A stretch of 64,000 nucleotides of DNA from Marinirhabdus gelatinilytica. Lineage in GTDB: Bacteria; Bacteroidota; Bacteroidia; Flavobacteriales; Flavobacteriaceae. The stretch lies in assembly GCF_003353425.1 (NCBI RefSeq), contig NZ_QRAO01000001.1, positions 62,001-126,000 on the forward strand, given 5' to 3'. The notes below the pieces were generated by a model. That model searched no databases. It saw only the letters and a program-made list of their open reading frames with translations, and had not been told where the DNA came from. Both the position numbers and the translations under genes were made by a program. Below, piece after piece: positions 9,201 to 48,411 of this stretch (the first letter of the stretch is position 1; each line of letters starts with the position of its first letter).

Positions 9201-9702
9201 TTTCAACCATAAATTTTGGGAATCTTGGTTGCTCAACCTTCGCGGAGCTTCAAACACGAACGAAAGTACTTCGGAAAATTTTCCCAGCAGAAATTTTAAT
9301 CTGGAAAGTTACGAGGCCAATCCCAAGCTTTCCTATCTCTTCAGTCGTGCTACGAGGTTTGATGTTTTTTATCAATTTATGGACGAAGAGAATACCTTGG
9401 GCGCAAACGAACGTTTACAGCAGCAAAAACTAGGGGCTTCATTCAGTTATACCAATGCCCAAAAAATTTCACTCAATGGAGAGTTCACATATATTGACAA
9501 CAACTTTACAGGCAGCGCTATCTCTCCGGTAGCCTACCAAATGCTGGAGGGCCTACAGCCTGGCACCAATTTTACCTGGTCGCTGTTGTTGCAAAAAAGG
9601 ATTACTAAATATCTGGATGCAAACCTATCCTACTTTGGGAGAAAGAGCGAGAGCTCCAAGACCGTTCACACAGGGAGTATGCAGTTACGTGCTTATTTTT
9701 AG
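6283..9702 (+). CDS. Large outer-membrane beta-barrel-like protein, function unknown
   Basis: 1139 residues. MKYLLSFLCLCAATLSVAQ is a signal peptide. The N-terminal 110 residues include a possible Ig-like or plug module (ARFEILDASGKKLDSTLYSI). A long beta-rich region then alternates polar and aromatic residues, with repeated NYTF/RYR/YEYR hairpins and aromatic strands up to the end. The last residues (SMQLRAYF) form the C-terminal strand ending in Phe typical of outer-membrane barrels, so there is no T9SS sorting domain. A DYNNNGIQELDEFE segment (about 827-840) resembles a calcium-binding loop. I have seen proteins of this size conserved in Flavobacteriia without assigned function. It follows the GGGP synthase gene by 81 bp. 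Confidence 0.65.
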   Translation: MKYLLSFLCLCAATLSVAQETTTYRTIKKAARDTIQVDTLAINPARFEILDASGKKLDSTLYSIDFKKGMLMLSEEAKTLDTITINYLQYPKFLTREYYTFDPSLIVENTGAMERLYSLEQGNKKNTFTPFDGLNTVGSISRGLTIGNNQNAVVNSELDLQITGKLNDKVSIRASIQDANIPTQQGGYSQSLDEFDQIFIELYSDNWNIRAGDVDLQNTTSYFARFIKKVQGISLGGTLNHESGASTSAFAAGALVRGVFQRSQFTGQEGNQGPYKLVGPNGELFILIVSGSERVYVNGLLLQRGENADYVIDYNAGEIKFNPTYPITANMRITVEYQFTDRNYTRFIGYGGGNYTSEKLDIGVYVYSESDAKNQPLQQNLTEEQVAILQNAGDDMDAMVAPSAVEDTFSENKILYKKELTLNGEEIFVFSNNPEDELFSVRFSLVGDNMGNYIISDQSAISTIFEYVPPVDGVPQGNYDPVIRLNAPTKLQIGGLNGSYRPTGKTLIDFEVAGSQNDLNLFSSLDDANNDGFAGRFAARQNIITTADTLKLDAIGSLDYINKDFRTIERLYNIEFNRDWNLIDPEGDQRFAIAGLQFSSPKMGTAQYTFQNLDFSENFSGTRHVINGTTRFGNLRSYTNGSILDSESDSLQSKFARLHHASVYGFKKAWVGGKISTEDNQVIQTQTDSLSLVSQGFAEYEAFAGIGDSTNVYVEAGYRYRVTDSVQFNQLLKVNTANTYFLKSKLLNTANTQLSVFANYRELTPFNDPDNKTTEKSLNSRILYNQNILKNGIRFNTVLEANNGVLPQQEFTYTQVDPGQGIYTWIDYNNNGIQELDEFEIAQFQDQADYVRILLPNRVFIKVRENKLSQLITLDPKNWNNKNGFLGLLSRFYNQTSYVLNRKVRRDNDGFNLNPFLDGGEDQLGLNLNFRNALFFNRGKQHYSTNYTFVSNKGSNLLAVGLQENQLLSHQVNFNHKFWESWLLNLRGASNTNESTSENFPSRNFNLESYEANPKLSYLFSRATRFDVFYQFMDEENTLGANERLQQQKLGASFSYTNAQKISLNGEFTYIDNNFTGSAISPVAYQMLEGLQPGTNFTWSLLLQKRITKYLDANLSYFGRKSESSKTVHTGSMQLRAYF

Positions 9703-9725
9703 AAAAAGAATAGCTGTCATGTAAA

Positions 9726-9750
9726 AAAGGCTACCCGTTTGGGCAGCCTT
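9726..9750. terminator. Bidirectional intrinsic terminator between convergent genes
   Basis: AAGGCTACCC and GGGCAGCCTT form a ten-pair stem with one mismatch around a GTTT loop. An A-run lies on the left (T-run for the minus strand) and CTTTG on the right. It is stronger for the minus-strand T9SS gene. Confidence 0.7.
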
Positions 9751-9774
9751 CTTTGATAAAATATAGTGTATGGA

Positions 9775-12429
9775 CTATTCTACAATTATCTTTCCTGTTA
9801 CGAAAGATCTACTTCTCTCATCACCCATTTTTACAAGGTATAATCCAGAAGCTGCATAAGACATATCCAACTGGTACGTATAGGTGTTACCAGTTTTTGA
9901 AATGTTGTTAAACGTTACCATTTGTCCTAATGTGTTGTATACAGCTATTGCTGCTACACCATCAAAATCTGTAGTGGTAAGTGTAATCTCATACTGCTGG
10001 TTTCCTTTATGTAAGATCATAAAGTCTGAATCTGTAAACAAATTATCCTGTGTACCCAAAGACTCATCTATAACAACGGTATAATCCTGAACTTCACCAA
10101 AGTCGAAATCTGTACAAGGATCGTTAATGTCTCCACCTGCCGAGGTATCGATAGCCTTTGCTCTTAAAATATGGCTTCCAAGCGTAGCGCCTGTTGGGAT
10201 GGTCAGGATAAAATCTTCCAAAACGTTATCATCTTGAAAAAACTCTCCAGCGATCAATTGCTCACTTGGCTCGAAGGTTTCACTATCGTCAAAGTCTATC
10301 CATACCGAAAGTGCCTCAACACCAGGACCTCCGGTCCAGTTTTGTTGCGCTTGTAAGATATGTACGTTAGAGCCTGACAATCTGCTCAGGTTAGTAGAAA
10401 GATCTGTTCTATCTGCATAGCCCTGTGGACTTCCTGCGGGTTCAGTGTTACAGCCGTCTCCTCCATCATCGGCATCTATATCACCAAGGACAAATCTCTT
10501 TATTCCATCTACGTTACATCCTTCAATAGCCGTAGGCATACAAACTCCTACAACTTGCTCAACGGTCTTGGTAGCAGTATCGTTTGAAGGATCTGTATCT
10601 CCTGTTAACAATGTACTTGCCTCAATAACAAAAGGACCCACGCCAGAAAGATCTGCCTGTGTTGTAAACGTATATTGTGCAGTTGCTCCAGCTGCGATTG
10701 TACCTGTAGTAGCAGTTTCAACCACAGGAGTTCCTGTGTCTATTATGTATTGTACAGAGGGGTCTGTAATATCGTTACTTCCAAAGTTACGTATGGTTAT
10801 TACTATATCTTCGGTAGCTGTTAACACACCAGAGTTAGGTTCGTCTATGCTCACTACCCCTATATCATCTGGCATAGGTGGCTCAAGACTAAAATGTGCC
10901 ACTACATCACGACGTGATGGTTCAAAATATTCAGCAATGTGCCAGAACGTATCGTCAACAGGATCTACCGTACACTGTACGTAATCTGCCAAACGGTTGC
11001 TTGGGTTTGCTGCAGTACTCTGTGCAATTAACTCTTCAGCAACATTCATTACGTTGGGTGTATTTAGAGATGCTAATTGTCCCGTGTAACGTATTGAAAT
11101 TCTATCGGTTGAAGAAGAAGAGGTATATCCCATAGCAATATCCCCAACAGAGTTCATAACCATACTACCAGAGTATGCGTCACGACCGTCCGGTGCTTCA
11201 TACGTACCTTCTTGGTGTATGGTCCAAGGTTGTGTGTCTCCACCTACTTGGCGTAGCTCATACCAGCGAATGGCAGCTTTTTCGCCGCCACCGGCAACCA
11301 CATCTACCACAAAGTTGAAAACAACGCTGTTGTAGGTTGGGAACCGTCTATACTGTGCCTGGTTCATTATTGTTGCTTGTAAAATATCTATATCTATCCC
11401 TCCACCTTGCGGACGGTTAGAGAACGAACCTCCATCAAATACACTTACAAAATCTGCAGTTGTGATTTCCTGTGCGGCACTCATAGTTGCGCCTCCAGGG
11501 TTATTCCAGTCTATAGTAGCGTTCCAGACCTTTAAGTGGTCATCCGAAACGCCTCCCCAAGCATCATCCTGTAGGTATACAATAGGAGCTGGAGCATTAT
11601 TGGGTGCCAATACATCATCGGTTGTGTGGAAGGCTTGTGGGCTATAAAAACCACTTGTAGAAATTCCTGGCAATGGCAATGCCACAAATTGTGCAGGATT
11701 ACCATCTAGCATCTCGTTACGCTCTACGGCAAAAACCCTATTATTATTGGCAATGTTTGCCGTAACCATATACTTATCTCCAAATACCGAGAACTTGGTA
11801 TAATCTGGAAAACTTCCTGTACCAAAACCTGTGGTATATACGTGCCATCCAGAAGTTACCGGGTCGCTCCCTTGGGAAACGGCTACGTTAAAACCATTAG
11901 GGTTGTTATCAAACTCTGTAATTACAAAGCGATCTGCCTCAGCGTCATAAAATACTATAGGATCTCCAATTGTATTTCCAGGGAATAACGTCCCCAAACT
12001 AAGCTCATTGGTTAATGGGTTACCATTTTTGTCGAAAATCCTGAACGCAGAGTTCCATGCAGCGACGTAATGGTTAGGCCCAGCAGCTCCAGTAGGATCT
12101 GAAGGGGTTGCCTGTGAGATATCTGCCACAAAGGTCAGAATAGGTGGCTGCACGCGTTGTTGCTGTGCATTGCGCTGTAAGTTTACCAACGGATCATTCC
12201 CGTCGCTCCCCTTACCTGGAACTACGTTGTTCCCGTGCTTGCGCTTGGGCTGTCCCAACATAGGGGAATTATCTGCAGCGATAAGTATCCCACTAGCTTT
12301 TTGCTCTGCGATACTTGGAACATAGTAGGGACCTTCTAACATTCCAAAGTCGGTCGCCCCATAATTTTCCTGAGCTTGTATCCCAAAGACACAGGCCAAA
12401 AAGAAAATTGTAAAGATCTTAAATTTCAT
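9775..12429 (-). CDS. T9SS-secreted protein with CARDB-like and GEVED domains (type A sorting domain)
   Basis: 884 residues with a signal peptide ending at GIQAQ. A long N-terminal module (about 100-515) starts with the PTGAAGPNHYVAAWNS motif and reads as a propeller-like surface domain. Residues about 520-625 form a CARDB-like beta-sandwich, and about 640-790 a GEVED domain (WIDFDDSETF, then FGEVQDYTV). The last 85 residues are a type A sorting domain (AVYNTLGQMV, then SGLYLVKM, ending GKIIVE), which sends it through the type IX system to the cell surface or medium. No catalytic motif is evident; an adhesive or structural role is possible. Monocistronic. Confidence 0.82.
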   Translation of the reverse strand: MKFKIFTIFFLACVFGIQAQENYGATDFGMLEGPYYVPSIAEQKASGILIAADNSPMLGQPKRKHGNNVVPGKGSDGNDPLVNLQRNAQQQRVQPPILTFVADISQATPSDPTGAAGPNHYVAAWNSAFRIFDKNGNPLTNELSLGTLFPGNTIGDPIVFYDAEADRFVITEFDNNPNGFNVAVSQGSDPVTSGWHVYTTGFGTGSFPDYTKFSVFGDKYMVTANIANNNRVFAVERNEMLDGNPAQFVALPLPGISTSGFYSPQAFHTTDDVLAPNNAPAPIVYLQDDAWGGVSDDHLKVWNATIDWNNPGGATMSAAQEITTADFVSVFDGGSFSNRPQGGGIDIDILQATIMNQAQYRRFPTYNSVVFNFVVDVVAGGGEKAAIRWYELRQVGGDTQPWTIHQEGTYEAPDGRDAYSGSMVMNSVGDIAMGYTSSSSTDRISIRYTGQLASLNTPNVMNVAEELIAQSTAANPSNRLADYVQCTVDPVDDTFWHIAEYFEPSRRDVVAHFSLEPPMPDDIGVVSIDEPNSGVLTATEDIVITIRNFGSNDITDPSVQYIIDTGTPVVETATTGTIAAGATAQYTFTTQADLSGVGPFVIEASTLLTGDTDPSNDTATKTVEQVVGVCMPTAIEGCNVDGIKRFVLGDIDADDGGDGCNTEPAGSPQGYADRTDLSTNLSRLSGSNVHILQAQQNWTGGPGVEALSVWIDFDDSETFEPSEQLIAGEFFQDDNVLEDFILTIPTGATLGSHILRAKAIDTSAGGDINDPCTDFDFGEVQDYTVVIDESLGTQDNLFTDSDFMILHKGNQQYEITLTTTDFDGVAAIAVYNTLGQMVTFNNISKTGNTYTYQLDMSYAASGLYLVKMGDERSRSFVTGKIIVE

Positions 12430-12551
12430 AAAATAGGTATTAAGTTAAACTTTTGTAAAATAGATGTTAAAATTACTAAGAATTTCGCTGAATACCTCAC
12501 AAAAAACAATAATTAAACAGTCTAAGTATCAATAATTTAGAATATTAAAAT

Positions 12552-12566
12552 CTAGCAGCCTGCTAG
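12552..12566. repeat. Short perfect palindrome in a divergent intergenic region
   Basis: CTAGCAG-C-CTGCTAG, seven pairs around one central base, lies in the 243-bp gap between the divergent T9SS gene and the small lipoprotein gene. It has no T-run, so it is not a terminator; an operator is possible. The rest of the gap is AT-rich, without another gene. Confidence 0.4.
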
Positions 12567-12672
12567 GATACTATTAAAATATGCAGCAATAATTATAAAA
12601 GATATATGGATGCCCATTAAATAGGTACATATTTTGTAATTTACCCCAATAGAAATCTTAAAAAACCACCTA

Positions 12673-40036: not shown

Positions 40037-41098
40037 TTAGCCATCTGCTTCATCCTCTAGTGCATTCCAGCCCCTAGCGATCAATTCAATTTTTGTGTTG
40101 GCACGGGTAATAAGATGCATTCCCTCATTTTCCTTGGTTATATGGCCTATAACAGATAAGTGTGGATTGCCTTTTATTTTTGGGAAATCTTCAGTAGCAA
40201 CGGTAAAGAGCAATTCATAATCCTCCCCACCACTCAACGCTATAGTGGTACTGTCCATATTAAATTCCTCACAGGTTGAAATCACCTGGGGATCTAACGG
40301 TATTTTATCTTCATAAAGGTTACAGCCCACCATGGAGCTCTTACAAATATGGATTATCTCACTAGAAAGGCCGTCGCTAATATCTATCATAGCTGTGGGT
40401 TGCACCTCTAGTTCTGCCAGTAAGCCTGGGATGTCTCTTCTTGCTTCGGGCTTCAATTGCCGCTCTACCAAGTAACTGTACTTCTCAAGATCTGGTTGTG
40501 CATTGGGGTTAACTTTAAAAACCTCTTTTTCTCGCTCCAAAACCTGTAATCCTAGATAAGCAGCACCCAGATCGCCCGTCACCACGAGCAAATCATTTTC
40601 CTTGGCACCAGATCTATAGGTTATTTTTTTGGCCTCTGCTTCGCCTAGGGCTGTCACGCTTATAATCAACCCCGAAGTTGAAGAAGTAGTGTCGCCTCCA
40701 ATAACGTCTATTTTATATAGTTCGGCAGCAGTTTGTATCCCTGCGTACAGTTCTTCCATAGCTTCAACGGGAAACCTATTGGAAATAGCTACCGAAACAG
40801 TGATCTGTTTTGCTGTGGCATTCATTGCGTAAACGTCAGAAAGGTTTACCATCACAGCCTTGTAGCCCAAATGCTTTAATGGCATGTACGAAAGATCAAA
40901 ATGTACCCCTTCTACCAACATATCTGTAGTGACCACCAGTTGCGTGTTCTTTTCAGCAGCAATAACAGCAGCATCATCTCCAATTCCCTTTACAGTGGTT
41001 GTATGCTGAATTTTAAAATGCTTGGTGAGATGGTCTATGAGGCCAAACTCTCCCAGAGCCGAAATTGGGGTGGTTGCATTGTCTTTATTTTCAAACAT
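40037..41098 (-). CDS. thiL: Thiamine-monophosphate kinase
   Basis: 353 residues from ATG 41098 (an upstream ATG would add 14 residues lying over the -7 box). It converts thiamine phosphate to thiamine diphosphate with ATP. Motifs of the PurM-like family: LGEFGLIDHL at the start, KGIGDDAAVI, TTDMLVEGVHFDL, LGYKAVMVNLSDVYAM, DVIGGDTTSS, AMIDISDGLSSEIIHICK and SGGEDYELLF. No other thiamine genes and no TPP riboswitch were seen nearby. Confidence 0.95.
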   Translation of the reverse strand: MFENKDNATTPISALGEFGLIDHLTKHFKIQHTTTVKGIGDDAAVIAAEKNTQLVVTTDMLVEGVHFDLSYMPLKHLGYKAVMVNLSDVYAMNATAKQITVSVAISNRFPVEAMEELYAGIQTAAELYKIDVIGGDTTSSTSGLIISVTALGEAEAKKITYRSGAKENDLLVVTGDLGAAYLGLQVLEREKEVFKVNPNAQPDLEKYSYLVERQLKPEARRDIPGLLAELEVQPTAMIDISDGLSSEIIHICKSSMVGCNLYEDKIPLDPQVISTCEEFNMDSTTIALSGGEDYELLFTVATEDFPKIKGNPHLSVIGHITKENEGMHLITRANTKIELIARGWNALEDEADG

Positions 41099-41123
41099 AG
41101 TGCTTTCTTTGTGAGTGGAATTG

Positions 41124-41131
41124 CAAAAATA
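41124..41131 (-). promoter_or_regulatory. Candidate -7 box for thiL
   Basis: Minus-strand TATTTTTG, 25 bp before the chosen thiL ATG. No TTG was found at -33 spacing, so one-box support only; it favours the shorter start. Confidence 0.4.
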
Positions 41132-41163
41132 CGGCTTCATTTATAAACCACGACCGCTTGTTG

Positions 41164-41213: not shown

Positions 41214-42473
41214 ATGAAAAAAATTGTACTCTTTTGTCTGGCGAGTTTTATCCTAATTGGATGTTCCGAAGACGATGACAACCCCATAGCTACACTTCCC
41301 GAAGACCCAATGGAAGACCCCCTTCAAGATCCACCTCCCCCACCCCCTCCTCTAACATTTCCAGCCCCTTGTGACTCAGGACTTGCCGGCGGTATTTTTC
41401 CCTGTAATGGCATTGACCTTGTTTATCACATAGACCTAGATGAACTGGACGCGGAAAAAGGCAACGATAGCTGGGGATGGACAGACCCCATTACCGGCAA
41501 GGAATATGCGCTTATGGGACTGGATAATGGCACCGCTTTTATAGACATCTCTAACCCATCGGCCCCTATTTATTTAGGAAAGCTGGAAACAGAAACCTCT
41601 GCCAGCTCTTGGAGGGATATAAAAGTTTTTAAGGACCACGCATTTGTTGTGAGCGAAGCACAGGGCCACGGGATGCAAGTGTTCGACCTTACAAGGTTGC
41701 GGGATGTAACAAATCCTCCACAAAATTTTTCTACGGATGCCGAATACACCGGTTTTGGCAGCGCCCACAATATTGTTATCAATGAAGACTCTGGCTTTGC
41801 GTATGCAGTGGGCACACAAACATTTGATGGAGGCCCTCATTTTATAGACATTAACGATCCTACAAACCCACAAGGAGCAGGCGGATATGCCATGGGCTCC
41901 TATAGTCATGACGCACAAGTGGTCACTTATAACGGTCCCGACACAGAGTATACGGGAAGGGAAATCCTTATAGGCAGCAACGAGAATGAAGTGGTTCTTG
42001 TTGATATCACGGACAAAGCCAATCCAGTTCCCGTATCCACTATTTCCTACGACCAAGTGGGTTACACCCACCAAGGATGGTTTACTGAAGACCAATCCTA
42101 TTTTTTGTTGGGCGACGAGCTGGATGAACTTAATTTTGGCTTTGGCTCCAGAACTATTGTTTTCGATTTTACAGATCTGGACAATCCAATGCTTCATTTT
42201 GAGTACGATGGCCCTACTGCTGCCATAGACCACAATGGGTACGTAAATGGGGATAGGTATTATCTTGCAAACTATACTGCTGGCTTGCGAATTATAGATG
42301 TTTCAGGAATAGGGAATGGCTCTATTTCCGAAATGGGATCCTTCGATTCGTTTACACAAAACAACAACCCGTCATTTAACGGTGCTTGGAGCGTATTTCC
42401 TTATTTTGATAGCGGACATATCATCATAAGCGATATTGACAGTGGTTTCTATCTTGTTAAGCCCACGTTTTAG
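41214..42473 (+). CDS. Choice-of-anchor B family lipoprotein (LVIVD-type beta-propeller)
   Basis: 419 residues from ATG 41214 (an earlier in-frame ATG would bury the signal peptide). The lipobox ILIGC is followed by SEDDDNP, an acidic surface-export-like patch, and an Asp/Pro-rich linker with a run of seven Pro. The rest is a propeller with blades such as FIDISNPSAPIYLGKLE, VFDLTRLRDV and LVDITDKANPVPVS. Six histidines (142, 152, 185, 232, 286, 340; motifs GHGMQVF, SAHNIVIN, YSHDAQ, YTHQGW, DHNGY) recur at roughly blade length and are all kept in the paralog downstream. No known activity. It starts the cluster that ends with MbnP/MbnH; metal binding is my inference. Confidence 0.82.
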   Translation: MKKIVLFCLASFILIGCSEDDDNPIATLPEDPMEDPLQDPPPPPPPLTFPAPCDSGLAGGIFPCNGIDLVYHIDLDELDAEKGNDSWGWTDPITGKEYALMGLDNGTAFIDISNPSAPIYLGKLETETSASSWRDIKVFKDHAFVVSEAQGHGMQVFDLTRLRDVTNPPQNFSTDAEYTGFGSAHNIVINEDSGFAYAVGTQTFDGGPHFIDINDPTNPQGAGGYAMGSYSHDAQVVTYNGPDTEYTGREILIGSNENEVVLVDITDKANPVPVSTISYDQVGYTHQGWFTEDQSYFLLGDELDELNFGFGSRTIVFDFTDLDNPMLHFEYDGPTAAIDHNGYVNGDRYYLANYTAGLRIIDVSGIGNGSISEMGSFDSFTQNNNPSFNGAWSVFPYFDSGHIIISDIDSGFYLVKPTF

Positions 42474-42481
42474 TATATTTG
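42454..42481 (+). promoter_or_regulatory. Candidate promoter of the second propeller gene
   Basis: TTG (42454-42456), 17-bp spacer, TATATTTG (42474-42481, an exact TANNTTTG), directly after the stop of the first propeller gene and 130 bp before the next ATG. It suggests separate expression of the two paralogs, with a long leader. Confidence 0.5.
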
Positions 42482-42611
42482 CAAATCTTTTGATGTAATG
42501 CACCTTTTAATTGCTAAAATTTTAGCGATTTTTAAAATCTATTGCGCAATTTTTAAAAAAACATTTCGTTTCACCAATACTCATTTACTCATAAAACTTG
42601 AAACACTACTT

Positions 42612-44534
42612 ATGAAAAAAACACTACTTACGTTAGCTTTTTCCCTAACATCTACCATCGCACTTCTAGCCCAAACGCCCTGTACTGGTGGAAATGCGGG
42701 ACCATATCCATGTAATGGGTACGATTTGCAATCCCAATTCGATCTAAATGTACTTAACGCTGGAGCTGGAAACGACTCTTGGGGATGGACAGACCCTACC
42801 AATGGAGATGAGTATGCCATTGTGGGGCTATCCAACGGAACGGTTTTTATAGATATCACCAACCCAACAAATCCCACATACCTTGGTAAGCTCCCCACAC
42901 ACACCTCAAACAGTACTTGGAGAGATATAAAAGTGTACAACAATCACGCTTTCATAGTAAGCGAAGCTGGGGGACACGGAATGCAGGTGTTCGATCTTAC
43001 AAGACTTAGAAACGTACCTTCACCACCAACCACATTTACTGAAGATGCCCACTTCAATGGCTTTGGAAGTGCACACAACATTGTTATTAACGAAGATACC
43101 GGCTATGCGTATCCCGTGGGTGCAGCTCCTTTTAACGGAGGCCCCATTTTTATAAATATTCAAGACCCTCTTAATCCAGTTGAGGAAGGCGGGTACAGTA
43201 TGGACGCCTATAGTCACGATGCACAGATTGTAACCTACTGTGGTCCAGATCAAGATTATAATGGCAGGGAAATATTGATTGGAAGCAATGAGGATGAAGT
43301 CATTATTGCCGACATTACAGACAAAGCTAACCCCGTGAATATTTCCAGCATTTCATATTCAGATGTTGGATACACCCACCAAGGATGGTTTACCGAAGAC
43401 CAGCGCTTCTTCATCCTAGGAGACGAAACAGACGAACTTAACCTTGGTTTCAATACAAGGACCGTGGTTTTCGATTTTAACGACTTGGACAATCCTTCAT
43501 TGGCTTTTGAATATTCTGGGCCTTCTTCCGCAATAGACCATAACGGCTATACAAAGGGTGAGAAGTTTTACCTATCTAGCTACAGGGCTGGATTGCGTGT
43601 ATTGGATGTATCTGATATTGAAAATGGTAATATGACCGAAGAAGGTTTCTTCGACTCCTACCCCAATAACGACAATGCAAGTTTTAGTGGTGCTTGGAGT
43701 GTATACCCTTATTTTGAAAGTGGTAACATAGTAATAAGCGATATTAATAGAGGCTTCTTACTGGTGAAAGCACAAAATGGAGACACCACAAAACCAGTAG
43801 CAAGCTGTGTGACCACAACAGTAGAGTTAGATGCAGCTGGAAACGGTGAACTGAACCCACAAGAAGCTGCTAATGGTTCCACTGATGATGTAGGAATTGC
43901 AGGATATTTGGCCTGTGATAGGTTTTTTGATTGTACAGACATAGGCACCACAACAGTAGAAATTGAAGTATACGATGCCTTTGGGAACAGAGACACCTGT
44001 ACCGCCACTGTTGAAGTTGTAGATAATTTAGCTCCCGCAATCACTTGTCCGGCAGATGAAGAGGTGATGTACGACGCTGGACAAACCTTCTATACTGTGC
44101 CCGATTACATTGCTGCGGGCGAAGTTACTGCAACGGACAATTGTACAACAAGTTTGACCATTACCCAGGATCCACCTGCAGGCACACAACTTACAGCCGG
44201 TAATTATAATATTGTTTTTGAAAGTACGGATAACTCTTCCAACGTAGGCTCTTGTAGTTTTCAATTGGCCGTGGAAGTACCACTTTCGGTAGCCGAAAAC
44301 ACCTTGGAAGCTGGGCTGGATGTGTTTCCAAACCCAACAGCAGATTTATTGAACATCACTTCAAAGAATAGTGATATGCATACCATTTCAGTAGTGGATA
44401 TTACCGGTAAAACAGTTTATTTACAAGAAACTGCAGCCATAACTACTGCTACATTGGATGTTTCAACTTACTCAAAAGGAGTGTATTTTGTAACCATTAA
44501 CAATACGGTTACCAAGAAAATCATTAAAAAGTAA
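42612..44534 (+). CDS. Choice-of-anchor B family protein, T9SS-secreted paralog with HYR-like domains
   Basis: 640 residues from ATG 42612 with signal peptide to LLAQ. Residues about 20-395 are a close paralog of the lipoprotein propeller upstream: the same blade motifs (GNDSWGWTDP, WRDIKV, GHGMQVFDLTRLR, YTHQGWFTEDQ) and the same six His. Instead of a lipid anchor it carries two Cys-containing HYR-like beta-sandwiches (about 400-555: ASCVTTTVELDAAG, DNLAPAITCPADEE) and a type A sorting domain (FPNPTADLLN, VVDITGKTV, then KGVYFVTI, ending KKIIKK). So one propeller is tethered and the other exported by the type IX system. Confidence 0.85.
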   Translation: MKKTLLTLAFSLTSTIALLAQTPCTGGNAGPYPCNGYDLQSQFDLNVLNAGAGNDSWGWTDPTNGDEYAIVGLSNGTVFIDITNPTNPTYLGKLPTHTSNSTWRDIKVYNNHAFIVSEAGGHGMQVFDLTRLRNVPSPPTTFTEDAHFNGFGSAHNIVINEDTGYAYPVGAAPFNGGPIFINIQDPLNPVEEGGYSMDAYSHDAQIVTYCGPDQDYNGREILIGSNEDEVIIADITDKANPVNISSISYSDVGYTHQGWFTEDQRFFILGDETDELNLGFNTRTVVFDFNDLDNPSLAFEYSGPSSAIDHNGYTKGEKFYLSSYRAGLRVLDVSDIENGNMTEEGFFDSYPNNDNASFSGAWSVYPYFESGNIVISDINRGFLLVKAQNGDTTKPVASCVTTTVELDAAGNGELNPQEAANGSTDDVGIAGYLACDRFFDCTDIGTTTVEIEVYDAFGNRDTCTATVEVVDNLAPAITCPADEEVMYDAGQTFYTVPDYIAAGEVTATDNCTTSLTITQDPPAGTQLTAGNYNIVFESTDNSSNVGSCSFQLAVEVPLSVAENTLEAGLDVFPNPTADLLNITSKNSDMHTISVVDITGKTVYLQETAAITTATLDVSTYSKGVYFVTINNTVTKKIIKK

Positions 44535-44555
44535 GCATACAGCCTATAATACGAC

Positions 44556-44612
44556 ATAAAACTGGCATTGTAGATGGTTCTTAGGTGCCTAATACAGCCA
44601 GTTTTATTTTTA
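44556..44612 (+). terminator. Terminator-like hairpin after the second propeller gene
   Basis: ATAAAACTGGC (44556-44566) and GCCAGTTTTAT (44597-44607) are an 11-bp perfect stem; the 30-base loop holds the small palindrome TAGGTGCCTA. TTTTA follows. The large loop makes it less typical, but the stem is exact. Confidence 0.55.
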
Positions 44613-44648
44613 GCAAACACATTAAATGACCTAAACAATCCAACAGCT

Positions 44649-46025
44649 ATGAAAAAAATACCACTTCTTATACTAGTTTGTATACTCTTGGCAGGGCTTC
44701 ACGCATGTTCTAGTGACGATGCGACCACACCAGAAGAAGAACAGGAAGAGGAGGTTGAAGACCCCCCGGCTCTTTCTGGTAGTTTCGAGTATGTCCTCAA
44801 TATAGGAGGGTCTGACAATGATTCTGCCGCTTCCATAGTACCAACCAACGATGGCGGCTATGTCTTTGCAGGTGCTACACAAAGCACCAATGGTGATGTT
44901 ACGGACAAAACTGGAGATGACAGGGATGTCTGGGTGGTTAAGACCAACAGCAGCGGCGCCATACAATGGAGCAAAACGTATGGTGGTAGTGATGATGATG
45001 AAGGCACCAGCATTTCACCTACAAGTGATGGTGGGTACATAGTGTCAGGGTTCACCCGAAGTGACGATGGTGACGTGAGCACCAACGCAGGTTTTAACGA
45101 TCTATGGATTATTAAGCTTTCTGCAACAGGAGAACTGCAATGGGAGAAAACCTTTGGCTACTCTGGTAACGACAGGGCTTTCAATGTAAAACAGACCAAG
45201 GACGGTGGCTATTTAGCCTTGGGCGTGCTGGATGTAACCGCAAGTGGCGGCCAAGGAAATATAAACAGAGCATCGGCCAGTCACGCAGGTGGGGATTATT
45301 GGGTGCTTAAACTAGACCCAACCGGAGAAATAAACTGGGCCCGATATTACGGAGGTAGCTTTACAGATAGCGCTTTCGATTTTGTTGAAACAGATAACGG
45401 TAATTACATTATCACGGGCTGGTCAGACAGCAGTGATGTGGATATTACGAACAATAAAGGAGAATACGATTTCTGGATCTTGAACATTTCAGCAAACGGG
45501 AGCATAAACTGGAAGAAGAACTATGGAGGGACTGAAATAGACTTGGCATACAGTATGACCACAACAACCGATGGCAATTTCATCATTGTAGGCGATACTA
45601 GAAGTGCCGATACGGACATTAGCAACTTTATAGGGAACGCAGATGTCTGGGCCATAAAAATAGACAGCAACGGCTCGATTATTTGGGAAAAAACCTATGG
45701 TGGCACTCAATTCGACTCTGCAAGGGGTGTTGCCTCCCTTCCCAATGGTCGCTACGCAATAGTAGCCTCGTCACGAAGTAACGATGTAAACGTAACCACC
45801 AACAACGGTCTTAACGACGGTTGGTTTGTAGTGATTGATGAAGAAGGCACCCTGTTGTTTGAAGAGAGTATTGGCGGCAGCCAGTTAGACTTTGCCGAGG
45901 GTATTACAAGCAATGCTACTGGCGAAATTTATATTGTAGGAAATACCGAGAGTAACGACGGAAACTTTACCCAGAACAAAGGGGGGAAAGACGCATTTCT
46001 CGCTAAATTTAAATTTGAAAATTAA
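44649..46025 (+). CDS. Seven-repeat propeller-like lipoprotein
   Basis: 458 residues from ATG 44649, beginning a lipoprotein signal with lipobox LHAC; next come SSDDATTP and an EEEQEEEVED stretch, an acidic surface-export-like patch. The mature part is seven repeats of about 50-60 residues with the pattern W-x-K-x-YGGS-x-x-D-x-A-x-S-x-x-x-T-x-DGGY-x-x-x-G-x-T-x-S-x-DGD. The YGGS position reads GGSDNDSA, GGSDDDEG, YSGNDRA, GGSFTDSA, GGTEIDLA, GGTQFDSA and GGSQLDFA. This predicts a seven-bladed propeller, perhaps with Ca-binding Asp loops. It is first of a tight three-gene run with mbnP (17 bp) and mbnH (7 bp). Confidence 0.75.
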   Translation: MKKIPLLILVCILLAGLHACSSDDATTPEEEQEEEVEDPPALSGSFEYVLNIGGSDNDSAASIVPTNDGGYVFAGATQSTNGDVTDKTGDDRDVWVVKTNSSGAIQWSKTYGGSDDDEGTSISPTSDGGYIVSGFTRSDDGDVSTNAGFNDLWIIKLSATGELQWEKTFGYSGNDRAFNVKQTKDGGYLALGVLDVTASGGQGNINRASASHAGGDYWVLKLDPTGEINWARYYGGSFTDSAFDFVETDNGNYIITGWSDSSDVDITNNKGEYDFWILNISANGSINWKKNYGGTEIDLAYSMTTTTDGNFIIVGDTRSADTDISNFIGNADVWAIKIDSNGSIIWEKTYGGTQFDSARGVASLPNGRYAIVASSRSNDVNVTTNNGLNDGWFVVIDEEGTLLFEESIGGSQLDFAEGITSNATGEIYIVGNTESNDGNFTQNKGGKDAFLAKFKFEN

Positions 46026-46042
46026 TTTCTAACATACACAAA

Positions 46043-46852
46043 ATGATAAAAAAAATTGCCCTTATTTGCTTCACAGTAGGTTTATTTATTGCCTGTAACA
46101 GTGATGACGACGCACCCGTAATCCAGGATGACCCTGTAAATGTAGATTTTACATTTACTGAAAACTGGGATGGAGATGACATCACGAACGCAGATTACGA
46201 AACAACAACATATACTACAGCAAACGGGGTAGACTTAAAATTATTTAAGTTGAATTATTTAATCTCAGATATTACGTTCACCGCCCAAGACGGAACTGAG
46301 TATGGTGCAGGAGACTACAATTTGATCACCGCGCGCACAGGGGACAATGCAAACTTTACCCCAGACATCCAAATCCCAGAGGGAACGTACAATGTTTCTT
46401 TCACTTTTGGATTTAATGACGAAGATAACGATAAGGAAGGCGGTTATGCAGATCTTAACTCGGCAGACGGTACTTGGTCCGTTCCAGAAATGCTTGGTGG
46501 CGGTTACCACTACATGCGTATGGAAGGAACTTTTGAAAACACAACAGGCGATACCGAAACTTTCCAATACCATACCATCAGAGCCAACAAACACAGTTCC
46601 TTACCGCCAGATATGACCACATTGGAACTTGTTGAAGACACTTCATTTGTAGTGGACCTAGGAGATATAAGTATAGGAAATAACACCAATATCACGGTGG
46701 GTATGAACGTAGCCGAATGGTTCAAAAACCCTAATACTTGGGATCTCAACGAAGAATCTTCGGTAATGATGCCAAGGTACGACCTCCAGATTGCTATGAA
46801 CCAAAATGGCAGCAATGGAGTTTTTTCTCGTGAAACTTCCTTAATTGAATAA
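46043..46852 (+). CDS. mbnP: MbnP family copper-binding lipoprotein
   Basis: 269 residues. Lipobox LFIAC (Cys18) followed by NSDDDAP, a surface-export-like patch. The MbnP family pattern is clear: VDFTFTENWDGDDITNADYET, LKLFKLNYLISDITFT, YNVSFTFGFNDEDND, VPEMLGGGYHYMRMEG and MNVAEWFKNPNTWDL. In methanotrophs MbnP binds copper after its partner MbnH oxidises a Trp to kynurenine. Trp candidates here are 42, 145, 226 and 233; metal-ligand candidates are His156, His177, His184 and the Met residues nearby. The mbnH gene follows 7 bp later, the usual pair. There is no methanobactin gene, as in most carriers of this pair. Confidence 0.88.
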   Translation: MIKKIALICFTVGLFIACNSDDDAPVIQDDPVNVDFTFTENWDGDDITNADYETTTYTTANGVDLKLFKLNYLISDITFTAQDGTEYGAGDYNLITARTGDNANFTPDIQIPEGTYNVSFTFGFNDEDNDKEGGYADLNSADGTWSVPEMLGGGYHYMRMEGTFENTTGDTETFQYHTIRANKHSSLPPDMTTLELVEDTSFVVDLGDISIGNNTNITVGMNVAEWFKNPNTWDLNEESSVMMPRYDLQIAMNQNGSNGVFSRETSLIE

Positions 46853-46859
46853 ATCACAA

Positions 46860-47933
46860 ATGAAAAAGGTTGGAATTTTAAGTTGTTTGGTAACTTCACT
46901 GCTGTTGTTCACATCCTGTGAGGACAGTGATGATACTGCGATACAATATATGGCAACCCCTGCACCGCTTGAAGTCCCCACTATTTTTCAAGACCAAATT
47001 CTACCTCCGGTTATCCCTGAGGACAATCCCCAAACGGCCGAAGGTATCGCATTGGGAAAAAAATTATTTTTTGACAGGAACCTCTCTGCGGACGGCTCCA
47101 TCTCTTGTGCCTCCTGCCACGCCCCTCAAGCCGCATTTTCAGACAATCGTCAATTCAGTATAGGAATTACGGGAGAAGAAGGGTTCAGGAACTCTATGCC
47201 ACTACAAAATCTAGTCTTCAATTACGACGAAAAGTTTAATTGGGACGGCAGCGCCAACTCCTTGGAATCGCAAATGTTCGAGCCAGTTGTCAATCCCATT
47301 GAAATGGCAAACACTTGGGCCAATGTAGAAAGCACATTGCAGGACTCAAACGAATACCCACAACTTTTTGAAGAGGCTTTCGGCACACAAATTATAGACT
47401 CTACCCTTGTAACCAAAGCATTGGCACAGTTTGTAAGAACTCTGGTTACGGCCAACTCAAGGTTCGATCAAGCCCAATTGGGACTTATAGAATTAACTCC
47501 ACAGGAGCAAAATGGTCTCAATGTCTTTTTGGACGAGAGCCGAGGCGATTGTTTCCATTGCCACGGGCTACCAGCAAATCCGCTATGGACGGACAACGCA
47601 TTTCACAACAATGGACTAGACGAGGAGTTTGACGATCTTGGCCTCGGGAACATAACCGGGGACCCAAGGGATTTTGGACTTTTCAGGACACCTTCGCTTC
47701 GTAATTTAAAATTTACCGCTCCCTATATGCACGATGGGCGTTTTGCCACCTTGGACGAGGTAATAGACCACTATAGTGAGGGACTGGTCTTTTCTCCAAC
47801 AATAGATCCGCTCATGAAAGCCATTAGCGAAGGAGGCGTTCAACTTTCTGAAGAGGACAAGGCAGATCTTAAAGCTTTCCTGCTATCGCTTTCGGATGAT
47901 TCTTTCATCAACAATCCAGATTTTAGACAATAG
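46860..47933 (+). CDS. mbnH: Di-heme cytochrome c peroxidase family lipoprotein (MbnH/MauG-like)
   Basis: 357 residues from ATG 46860 (a TTG five codons earlier overlaps mbnP). Lipobox LFTSC (Cys20), then EDSDDTA. Two heme c sites: C83-x-x-C86-H87 (SCASCHAPQ) and C231-x-x-C234-H235 (DCFHCHG). Other family motifs: GKKLFFDRNLSADGSISCASCH, RNSMPLQNLVFN and FRTPSLRNLKFTAPYMHDGRFATLDEV. Such enzymes use hydrogen peroxide to reduce it or, in the MauG/MbnH branch, to oxidise residues of a partner protein. The adjacent mbnP makes protein modification the likely role. Surface or outer-membrane location inferred from the lipoprotein signal. Confidence 0.9.
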   Translation: MKKVGILSCLVTSLLLFTSCEDSDDTAIQYMATPAPLEVPTIFQDQILPPVIPEDNPQTAEGIALGKKLFFDRNLSADGSISCASCHAPQAAFSDNRQFSIGITGEEGFRNSMPLQNLVFNYDEKFNWDGSANSLESQMFEPVVNPIEMANTWANVESTLQDSNEYPQLFEEAFGTQIIDSTLVTKALAQFVRTLVTANSRFDQAQLGLIELTPQEQNGLNVFLDESRGDCFHCHGLPANPLWTDNAFHNNGLDEEFDDLGLGNITGDPRDFGLFRTPSLRNLKFTAPYMHDGRFATLDEVIDHYSEGLVFSPTIDPLMKAISEGGVQLSEEDKADLKAFLLSLSDDSFINNPDFRQ

Positions 47934-48046: not shown

Positions 48047-48054
48047 TATCTTTG
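48047..48054 (+). promoter_or_regulatory. Candidate -7 box of the SUF cluster
   Basis: TATCTTTG, an exact TANNTTTG, 27 bp before the first SUF ATG. No clear TTG at -33. The 47934-48081 gap shows no other gene. Confidence 0.45.
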
Positions 48055-48081: not shown

Positions 48082-48411
48082 ATGATAAAAGTTAGCGATA
48101 CCGCAAAGACAAAGCTCGAACAGCTAATGAGTGAGGAAGGGTTTAATGTGACCAGCGACTTTGTGCGCGTGGGGGTGAAGAGTGGTGGTTGTTCCGGACT
48201 TTCGTACGAATTGAATTTTGACAAACAACTCGGGGAGAACGACAAGCTATTCGAGGACAACCTTGTCAAGATAGCCGTGGACAAAAAGAGCTTTTTGTAT
48301 TTGGTAGGAACTACACTGGAATACAGCGGCGGCCTAAACGGAAAGGGATTTGTGTTCAACAACCCAAATGCCAATAGGACCTGCGGGTGTGGGGAGTCTT
48401 TCTCTTTATAA
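48082..48411 (+). CDS. sufA: A-type iron-sulfur carrier (HesB/IscA/SufA family)
   Basis: 109 residues. The three conserved Cys are present: Cys37 in GGCSGLSYEL and Cys101/Cys103 in RTCGCGESF. It accepts and delivers [Fe-S] clusters. First gene of the SUF cluster, followed 101 bp later by sufB. The family motif KSGGCSGLSY and the C-terminal CGCGESF make the assignment secure; IscA or SufA naming is by context (a SUF, not an ISC, cluster). Cytoplasmic. Confidence 0.93.
   Translation: MIKVSDTAKTKLEQLMSEEGFNVTSDFVRVGVKSGGCSGLSYELNFDKQLGENDKLFEDNLVKIAVDKKSFLYLVGTTLEYSGGLNGKGFVFNNPNANRTCGCGESFSL

Follow-up and report, generated by a model that had tools for sequence, protein, structure and literature searches.

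A conserved Flavobacteriaceae gene set linking two kinds of propeller protein to a divergent MbnP-MbnH pair: a possible surface metal-handling assembly

We have analyzed five adjacent genes in a 64,000-nucleotide stretch of the Marinirhabdus gelatinilytica genome (NZ_QRAO01000001.1, positions 62,001 to 126,000; hereafter the window). They encode two propeller proteins of the choice-of-anchor-B family (chB1 and chB2; chB for family members in general), a seven-repeat lipoprotein (rep7) and relatives of the proteins MbnP and MbnH. An earlier note on this DNA had read them as a possible surface copper system. The five genes that it described were all recovered, on one strand and with the same limits, and their profile matches agree with the families it named. 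Model quality is given as the predicted local distance difference test score (pLDDT), and T9SS is the type IX secretion system.

41214-42473, + strand: chB1, choice-of-anchor-B seven-bladed propeller lipoprotein (C17, CSEDDDN); TIGR04312 561 bits, cut-off 100; model pLDDT 90.6; lipobox, acidic residues at +2 to +6
42612-44534, + strand: chB2, tandem paralog of chB1, with chB domain, HYR domain and T9SS sorting tail; TIGR04312 570.5 bits, HYR 28.2 bits
44649-46025, + strand: rep7, seven-repeat lipoprotein modelled as a CylK-like seven-bladed propeller, of the form without the HxH cluster; model pLDDT 91.9
46043-46852, + strand: MbnP, variant class with WxV in place of WxW; PF20243 100.7 bits, cut-off 27
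46860-47933, + strand: MbnH-like di-heme MauG/CCP lipoprotein; PF03150 183.5 bits, TIGR04039 256.7 bits, PDB 6e1c E 3.2e-53

The sorting tail of chB2 was recognised by two models (48.8 bits for TIGR04183, and 55.9 bits). The best NCBIfam match of rep7, to the delta-60 repeat, scored 25.8 bits, under the cut-off of 76.5. The tight spacing of rep7, mbnP and mbnH (gaps of 17 and 7 bp) is as the earlier note had it. Its identification of the last two as a known pair holds for the families; both are divergent members, since MbnH, though TIGR04039 is its best NCBIfam match, falls under the equivalog cut-off of that model, 362.85 bits, and MbnP gave no NCBIfam match to TIGR04052, the four-Cys motif model, at E 0.01. 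The window MbnP has no Cys after that of its lipobox.

Relatives of the locus were collected by a contig search, one genome per species, with the window-type MbnP, and the best 80 of 318 relatives were used. These loci were picked by MbnP sequence and not by their neighbours, with the qualification that the seven-row seed alignment came from chB-bearing loci. All 80 have a chB, and in all 80 the gene immediately before mbnP, on the same strand, is rep7. An MbnH gene comes next after mbnP in 78, the remaining two being contig ends, and the order chB-rep7-mbnP-mbnH is perfect in 77; the third deviation, in Lacinutrix neustonica (L142, CP113088), has several broken frames. Broken in that complete genome are thiL, chB, rep7 and sufB, a pattern that suggests sequencing errors rather than gene decay. 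The number of chB reading frames is one in 55 loci, two in 13, three in 7, four in 3 and five in 2, a tally in which some frames, as in L142, are pieces; 25 of the 80 loci thus have two to five. Because most loci have a single chB frame, chB2 of the window is a local tandem copy. The loci span 24 named genera, and 31 have no genus. One contig labelled Candidatus Rokubacteria (L084) carries a typical Flavobacteriaceae thiL-chB-rep7-mbnP-mbnH-suf locus and is probably from a mislabelled or mixed bin.

A survey of 299 genomes of the window's family (Flavobacteriaceae, judged by named relatives) gave the same association. The MbnP model is bimodal there: 91 genomes score above 250 bits and the other listed matches at or below about 80 bits, except for a fragment of one of those 91, split between contigs. 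A chB at E 1e-100 or better is found in 159 of the 299 genomes and in 90 of the 91 with new-type MbnP. The two genes are less than 6 kb apart in 65 of the 68 genomes with both coordinates listed; whenever the two share a contig, the chB closest to mbnP precedes it on the same strand. The sole exception (G866) has mbnP alone between thiL and suf, the slot usually held by the whole set, without chB, rep7 or MbnH there; rep7 and MbnH were sought in this slot only. Its MbnP has, by eye, Y at the otherwise invariant H156 and T at the otherwise invariant M243. The 259-residue frame is open, and the stop that the search counted is apparently just where the gene ends.

The dependence is one-sided. Among the 69 chB genomes without new-type MbnP, 12 have another MbnP over the cut-off and 57 have none, and 60 of the 69 keep rep7 (E 1e-80). 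Since chB and rep7 persist in this way, they are the constant unit, and new-type MbnP-MbnH depends on it and not the reverse; the pair is encoded after rep7 in about 97 of the 159 chB genomes. One of the 57 (G813) has a sub-threshold MbnP match far from chB. In seven of the 12 other-MbnP genomes a classical MbnP follows chB-rep7, with MbnH after it (L152-L156, L158, L163); in the other five, MbnP is elsewhere or on a different contig. Because chB-rep7 accompanies both kinds of MbnP, the link is to the function of the pair rather than to one gene lineage. In L156 mbnP and mbnH are separated by two genes, of 929 and 227 residues, that may encode a sensor protein and a response regulator. In L155 (G801) the whole cassette lies beside genes that we take to be atpDC, away from the usual slot. 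The window's own genome carries two further chB genes, of 472 and 479 residues (L049 and L050, on G000:C3 and at about 735 kb of G000:C1), without rep7 or MbnP nearby; one is just before an atpD-like gene, a neighbourhood like that of L155.

The association that the earlier note proposed between propellers and mbnP/mbnH thus goes beyond chance in the co-occurrence counts. It holds for the new subtype and not for MbnP-MbnH in general: of the 22 genomes with solely classical-type MbnP matches, only 8 have chB. Some classical mbnP genes are preceded by small genes of about 121 to 124 residues with a CNGKCH motif (L024, L018, L026-L029); those tested (L024, L030, L032) had no Pfam match. As for a copper context of classical pairs, six neighbour proteins gave one Pfam match only, to a T9SS tail. 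In a wider order-level sample of 296 genomes TIGR04312 is also bimodal: 18 matches, from 15 genomes, exceed 490 bits, and none of the others listed scores more than 236 bits. Among the loci read, the chB-rep7-MbnP-MbnH linkage is seen only in the window's family.

The model of rep7 is a seven-bladed propeller of 28 strands, closest by Foldseek to CylK (7fh8; E 1e-24, template modelling score (TM) 0.83, 24% identity). We compared 156 rep7 sequences, 106 with an adjacent MbnP-MbnH pair (99 new-type, 7 classical) and 50 without. H150, H174 and H176 are all present in each of the 50 without the pair, and the HxH is found in none of the 106 with it. H150 alone is kept in 28 of the 99 sequences beside a new-type pair and 1 of the 7 beside a classical one. 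H212 is present in all 156, and R318 in 98 of 99 and 7 of 7 with the pair against at most 1 of 50 without. On these sequences the linkage of rep7 form and pair is strong, and it is not proof of repeated independent replacement. One genome without MbnP-MbnH (L043) encodes, at 9700-12624 between thiL and chB, a 974-residue protein with a lipoprotein-like start and one CxxCH.

The MbnP of the window belongs to a distinct class, of which we compared 87 sequences with 29 classical ones. H177 is kept in all of both sets, and M243 in 87 of 87 new-class and 23 of 29 classical sequences; His and Met are, we assume, copper ligands in MbnP. Mapping onto 7l6g gave a weak match (E 0.058) that leaves M243 uncovered. 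The second W of the WxW motif is V in 86 of the 87 new-class proteins (the window reads WSV), and the first is F in 10 of 87 and W in all 29 classical ones; the classical MbnPs adjoining chB-rep7 have WxW in 7 of 7. The new class adds invariant H156, W226 and W233. In the MbnP that has been studied, the first Trp of WxW is reportedly converted to kynurenine, giving a Cu(I)-kynurenine site. Because 10 of the 87 proteins carry F at that position with MbnH retained beside them, the aligned sequences indicate that first-Trp kynurenine cannot be the product in every new-class member. The Trp-to-copper-site chemistry that the earlier note attached to the pair does not simply transfer.

In the two CxxCH heme motifs of MbnH, C83, H87, C231, C234 and H235 are conserved in 85 of 85 new-class sequences and C86 in 84 (one row has R). 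Y305 is conserved in 85 of 85 new-class and 29 of 29 classical sequences; judging solely by where the 3l4m match ends, it would be the equivalent of MauG Tyr294, which we take to be the axial Tyr of that enzyme. A branch with support 100 (FastTree) separates the new-class MbnHs from their classical counterparts, and at least five changes in the W/F state of MbnP map onto this MbnH tree.

The chB model is also a seven-bladed propeller. Invariant in 134 of 134 near relatives are D85/W87, W133-D135, H185, H232, H286, H340 and W392, which sit where the innermost strands of successive blades begin, or close by (model numbering is 45 lower). Given these positions the invariant residues, four His among them, should line the pore, where in the model they look as a metal site or an active site would. 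This fits a metal-binding or catalytic propeller, and to that extent favours the earlier suggestion that the propellers bind or present metal.

Surface exposure of the set is favoured by the lipoprotein starts. Those of the window (CSEDDDN, CSSDDAT, CNSDDDA and CEDSDDT) resemble the Bacteroidetes export signal, polar and then acidic after the lipid-bearing Cys, whose consensus is given as SDDFE or SDDDD in the excerpt of PMC5080379. At least two acidic residues in +2 to +6 occur in 72 of 80 MbnPs and 61 of 80 rep7 proteins, against 45 of 147 other lipobox genes. The lipobox finder is crude and overlooked two or more chB proteins that are evidently lipoproteins; most of the other 66 without a detected lipobox look like the secreted kind. 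From these starts, chB, rep7, MbnP and MbnH are probably surface-exposed.

The set occupies a conserved slot, bordered in the window by genes outside the system, named here from their sequences.

40037-41140, - strand: thiL, divergent left border (upstream in 69 of 80 loci)
48082-48411, + strand: sufA-like, right border and start of the suf cluster (suf downstream in 74 of 80 loci)

Several of the loci without thiL upstream are short contigs. Two elements were found in the gaps between genes of the set.

42474-42481, + strand: TATATTTG, -7-like promoter motif ahead of chB2 (pattern scan of the chB1-chB2 gap)
44556-44566 / 44597-44607, + strand: 11-bp perfect inverted repeat with T-rich tail, possible terminator (by eye, in the 114-bp chB2-rep7 gap)

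The 138-bp chB1-chB2 gap opens with TATATTTG, presumably a Bacteroidota -7-like promoter motif, and the pattern scan found no such motif on the + strand of the 73-bp gap ahead of chB1. Of the separate promoters that the earlier note gave both chB genes, that of chB2 is thus favoured and that of chB1 is not. Since the inverted repeat is followed by T-rich sequence before rep7, rep7-mbnP-mbnH may be a separate transcription unit in the window; the repeat is absent from the terminator-scan list, which allows loops of 3 to 8 only. The chB-rep7 gap of relatives has a median of just 10 bp (79 loci), and the rep7-mbnP and mbnP-mbnH gaps have medians of 4.5 and 5.5 bp. A regulatory motif upstream of chB was also considered and rejected, the enriched k-mers resembling thiL's own promoter region. 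Counts of sigma-70 motifs (19 against 16.7) and of terminators (10 against 7.3) are near chance.

Taking together the gene linkage, the one-sided dependence, the two exclusive rep7 forms, the propeller folds of the models and the conserved residues, we tentatively favour, as nearly though not quite probable, a surface metal-handling assembly in which MbnP-MbnH serves the propeller pair, encoded by a conserved Flavobacteriaceae gene set. The working that we infer for it, from ligand roles and location to docking, direction of transfer and the chemistry at chB, would be as follows. The core would be the propellers chB (lipoprotein or T9SS-secreted) and rep7 (lipoprotein), with MbnP and MbnH as accessories. 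MbnH, a di-heme protein with a MauG-type Tyr, would oxidise MbnP using outside peroxide. MbnP would then hold a metal, most likely Cu(I) by analogy with its family, with H177 and M243 as candidate ligands common to other MbnPs and H156 as an added candidate in the new class. It would hand or present the metal to the propeller pair, docking on rep7, and chB, acting as an enzyme or binding with high affinity, would use it in a pore lined by His. Where an adjacent pair is absent, rep7's own His cluster might stand in. A more specific version, a carrier swap, seems to us doubtful: chB-rep7 would need the metal, one lineage of rep7 would bind it through H150, H174, H176 and H212, and the other would have lost this site, MbnP-MbnH taking over, with a new-class copper site that has H156 instead of kynurenine and an MbnH acting on W226/W233.

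Several points weigh against a metal-supplying assembly. Loss of the WxW motif means that the copper chemistry of the studied MbnP may not hold for the new class. All HxH forms of rep7 fall in a single clade (support 97) of a tree built on all columns, those of the trait included, and the dichotomy may therefore have arisen just once. The chB tree offers no more than four supported switches, rep7 form and pair changing together in 4 of 4 (p 0.125), and co-transfer of adjacent genes can occur. The rep7 His cluster should lie on one face of blades 2-3, a geometry read from strand order. Two of the 50 HxH genomes (G812, G850) have a classical MbnP elsewhere. The export signal is weak for MbnH (44 of 77) and for chB (32 of 58 detected lipoboxes). 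The co-occurrence of chB and new-type MbnP over the 299 genomes has a Fisher p of 5e-31, which overstates the association because the genomes are related. Most classical MbnPs are partnerless, 14 of the 22 genomes with only classical-type matches having no chB, and rep7, MbnP and MbnH were all missing from 20 chB regions examined in 13 genomes of other families (the gene finder recovered chB in 16 of these regions).

The same assembly might do something other than supply copper, with chB a surface metallo-hydrolase (an LVIVD propeller like the Sphingobium phosphotriesterase, Sb-PTE) and MbnP-MbnH a peroxide-consuming or redox accessory. The best Foldseek PDB match of chB is this phosphotriesterase (5hrm, E 8e-13; the next, a WD40 protein, 3e-9), which we take to be metal-dependent with binuclear metal ligands, and a profile match to it is weak (E 0.011); the absence of the first Trp in 10 of 87 MbnPs points the same way. 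However, the 50 matches listed by VIA are WD40-type propellers (Z about 30) without 5hrm, identity is 16%, and the candidate MbnP ligands H177 and M243 are kept throughout the new class. Kinship of chB with Sb-PTE was therefore not assigned, and we consider this rival unlikely, though deserving serious weight.

The earlier note had also allowed that the propellers are further substrates of MbnH, and chB and rep7 are indeed adjacent and carry lipoprotein or T9SS signals. This idea is weakened by the 57 chB genomes without MbnP over the cut-off and by the retention of rep7 in 60 of the 69 without new-type MbnP (where MbnH was not searched genome-wide). Nor does any propeller Trp or Tyr track the pair, at thresholds of >85% conservation with the new pair, >80% with the classical pair and <40% without; we give the idea little credence. 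Equally improbable in our judgement is that the genes form no separate system and have a metal or stress role connected with the adjacent suf cluster (Fe-S repair). In its favour are the frequency with which suf follows and the position of sufA next after rep7 in 18 of 20 later-fetched loci without MbnP-MbnH. Against it, TATCTTTG at 48047, a promoter-like motif found by pattern scan before the sufA-like gene, suggests that this gene has its own promoter, the gap before suf in relatives has a median of 162 bp (73 loci), and the L155 cassette lies away from suf. Accident, that is, unrelated genes trapped between thiL and suf by conserved order, is hardly credible. In its favour, the location between these two genes hardly varies among the loci, and vertical descent with no other cause can preserve gene neighbours. 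Against it, two distinct MbnP-MbnH types follow chB-rep7, one cassette (L155) sits elsewhere, the sole orphan MbnP (G866) is altered at candidate ligands and, in 156 of 156 rows, the form of rep7 agrees with whether the pair is there; with the 80 of 80 loci and 90 of 91 genomes, these points led us to reject it.

MbnP-MbnH here gains constant partners across a large bacterial family; to our knowledge such pairs are widespread and their partners outside methanobactin operons poorly known. The set includes an MbnP class that breaks the kynurenine motif yet keeps its enzyme, and the natural contrast of rep7 with and without the His cluster would allow the role of the pair to be tested in genera that are named and culturable.

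The collection of literature searched held no match for 'choice-of-anchor B' or 'metallo-mystery pair'. Judged by the listings, nothing on LVIVD repeats, or on LVIVD and copper, was apparently related to copper proteins, and among the matches listed for MauG, Bacteroidetes lipoproteins and copper none was apparently related; among those listed for choice-of-anchor/TIGR04312, the excerpts examined concern choice-of-anchor J. The likeness of rep7 to CylK is one of fold, CylK being longer (653 residues against 417) and a Friedel-Crafts alkylating enzyme. BtuG-type Bacteroides surface lipoprotein propellers (PDB 8bai, 8okv) are a generic fold match to rep7 (E about 1e-7); unlike for these, no TonB-dependent receptor was recognised among the adjacent genes listed, for which no profile search was made. 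MopE/SACCP and CorA/CorB provide an analogous arrangement, a surface Cu(I) protein with a kynurenine site beside a di-heme CCP-like protein, SACCP being on the surface with MopE; they are copper-repressed in methanotrophs, the excerpt of that work describes no propeller partners, and the likeness is one of function (PMC3912023). Within choice-of-anchor-B (TIGR04312, LVIVD propellers), chB1 and chB2 are full-length members, and a lipoprotein start or T9SS tail on the same domain fits the family name; the company of rep7 and MbnP-MbnH is peculiar, among the loci read, to the window's family. The closest counterpart is the MbnP-MbnH pair of methanotrophs and other bacteria, which, as far as the excerpt of its description goes, has the same order, a PF20243 protein and then a di-heme MauG-like enzyme (GenProp0940; PMC3621798). 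Classical Bacteroidota pairs share with that of the window the His and Met positions, the heme motifs and Tyr305. The pair of the window differs from that closest counterpart in lacking the four-Cys motif, in WxV for WxW, in the extra H156, W226 and W233 that are invariant in its class, in an MbnH under the TIGR04039 cut-off, and in having chB and rep7 as partners.

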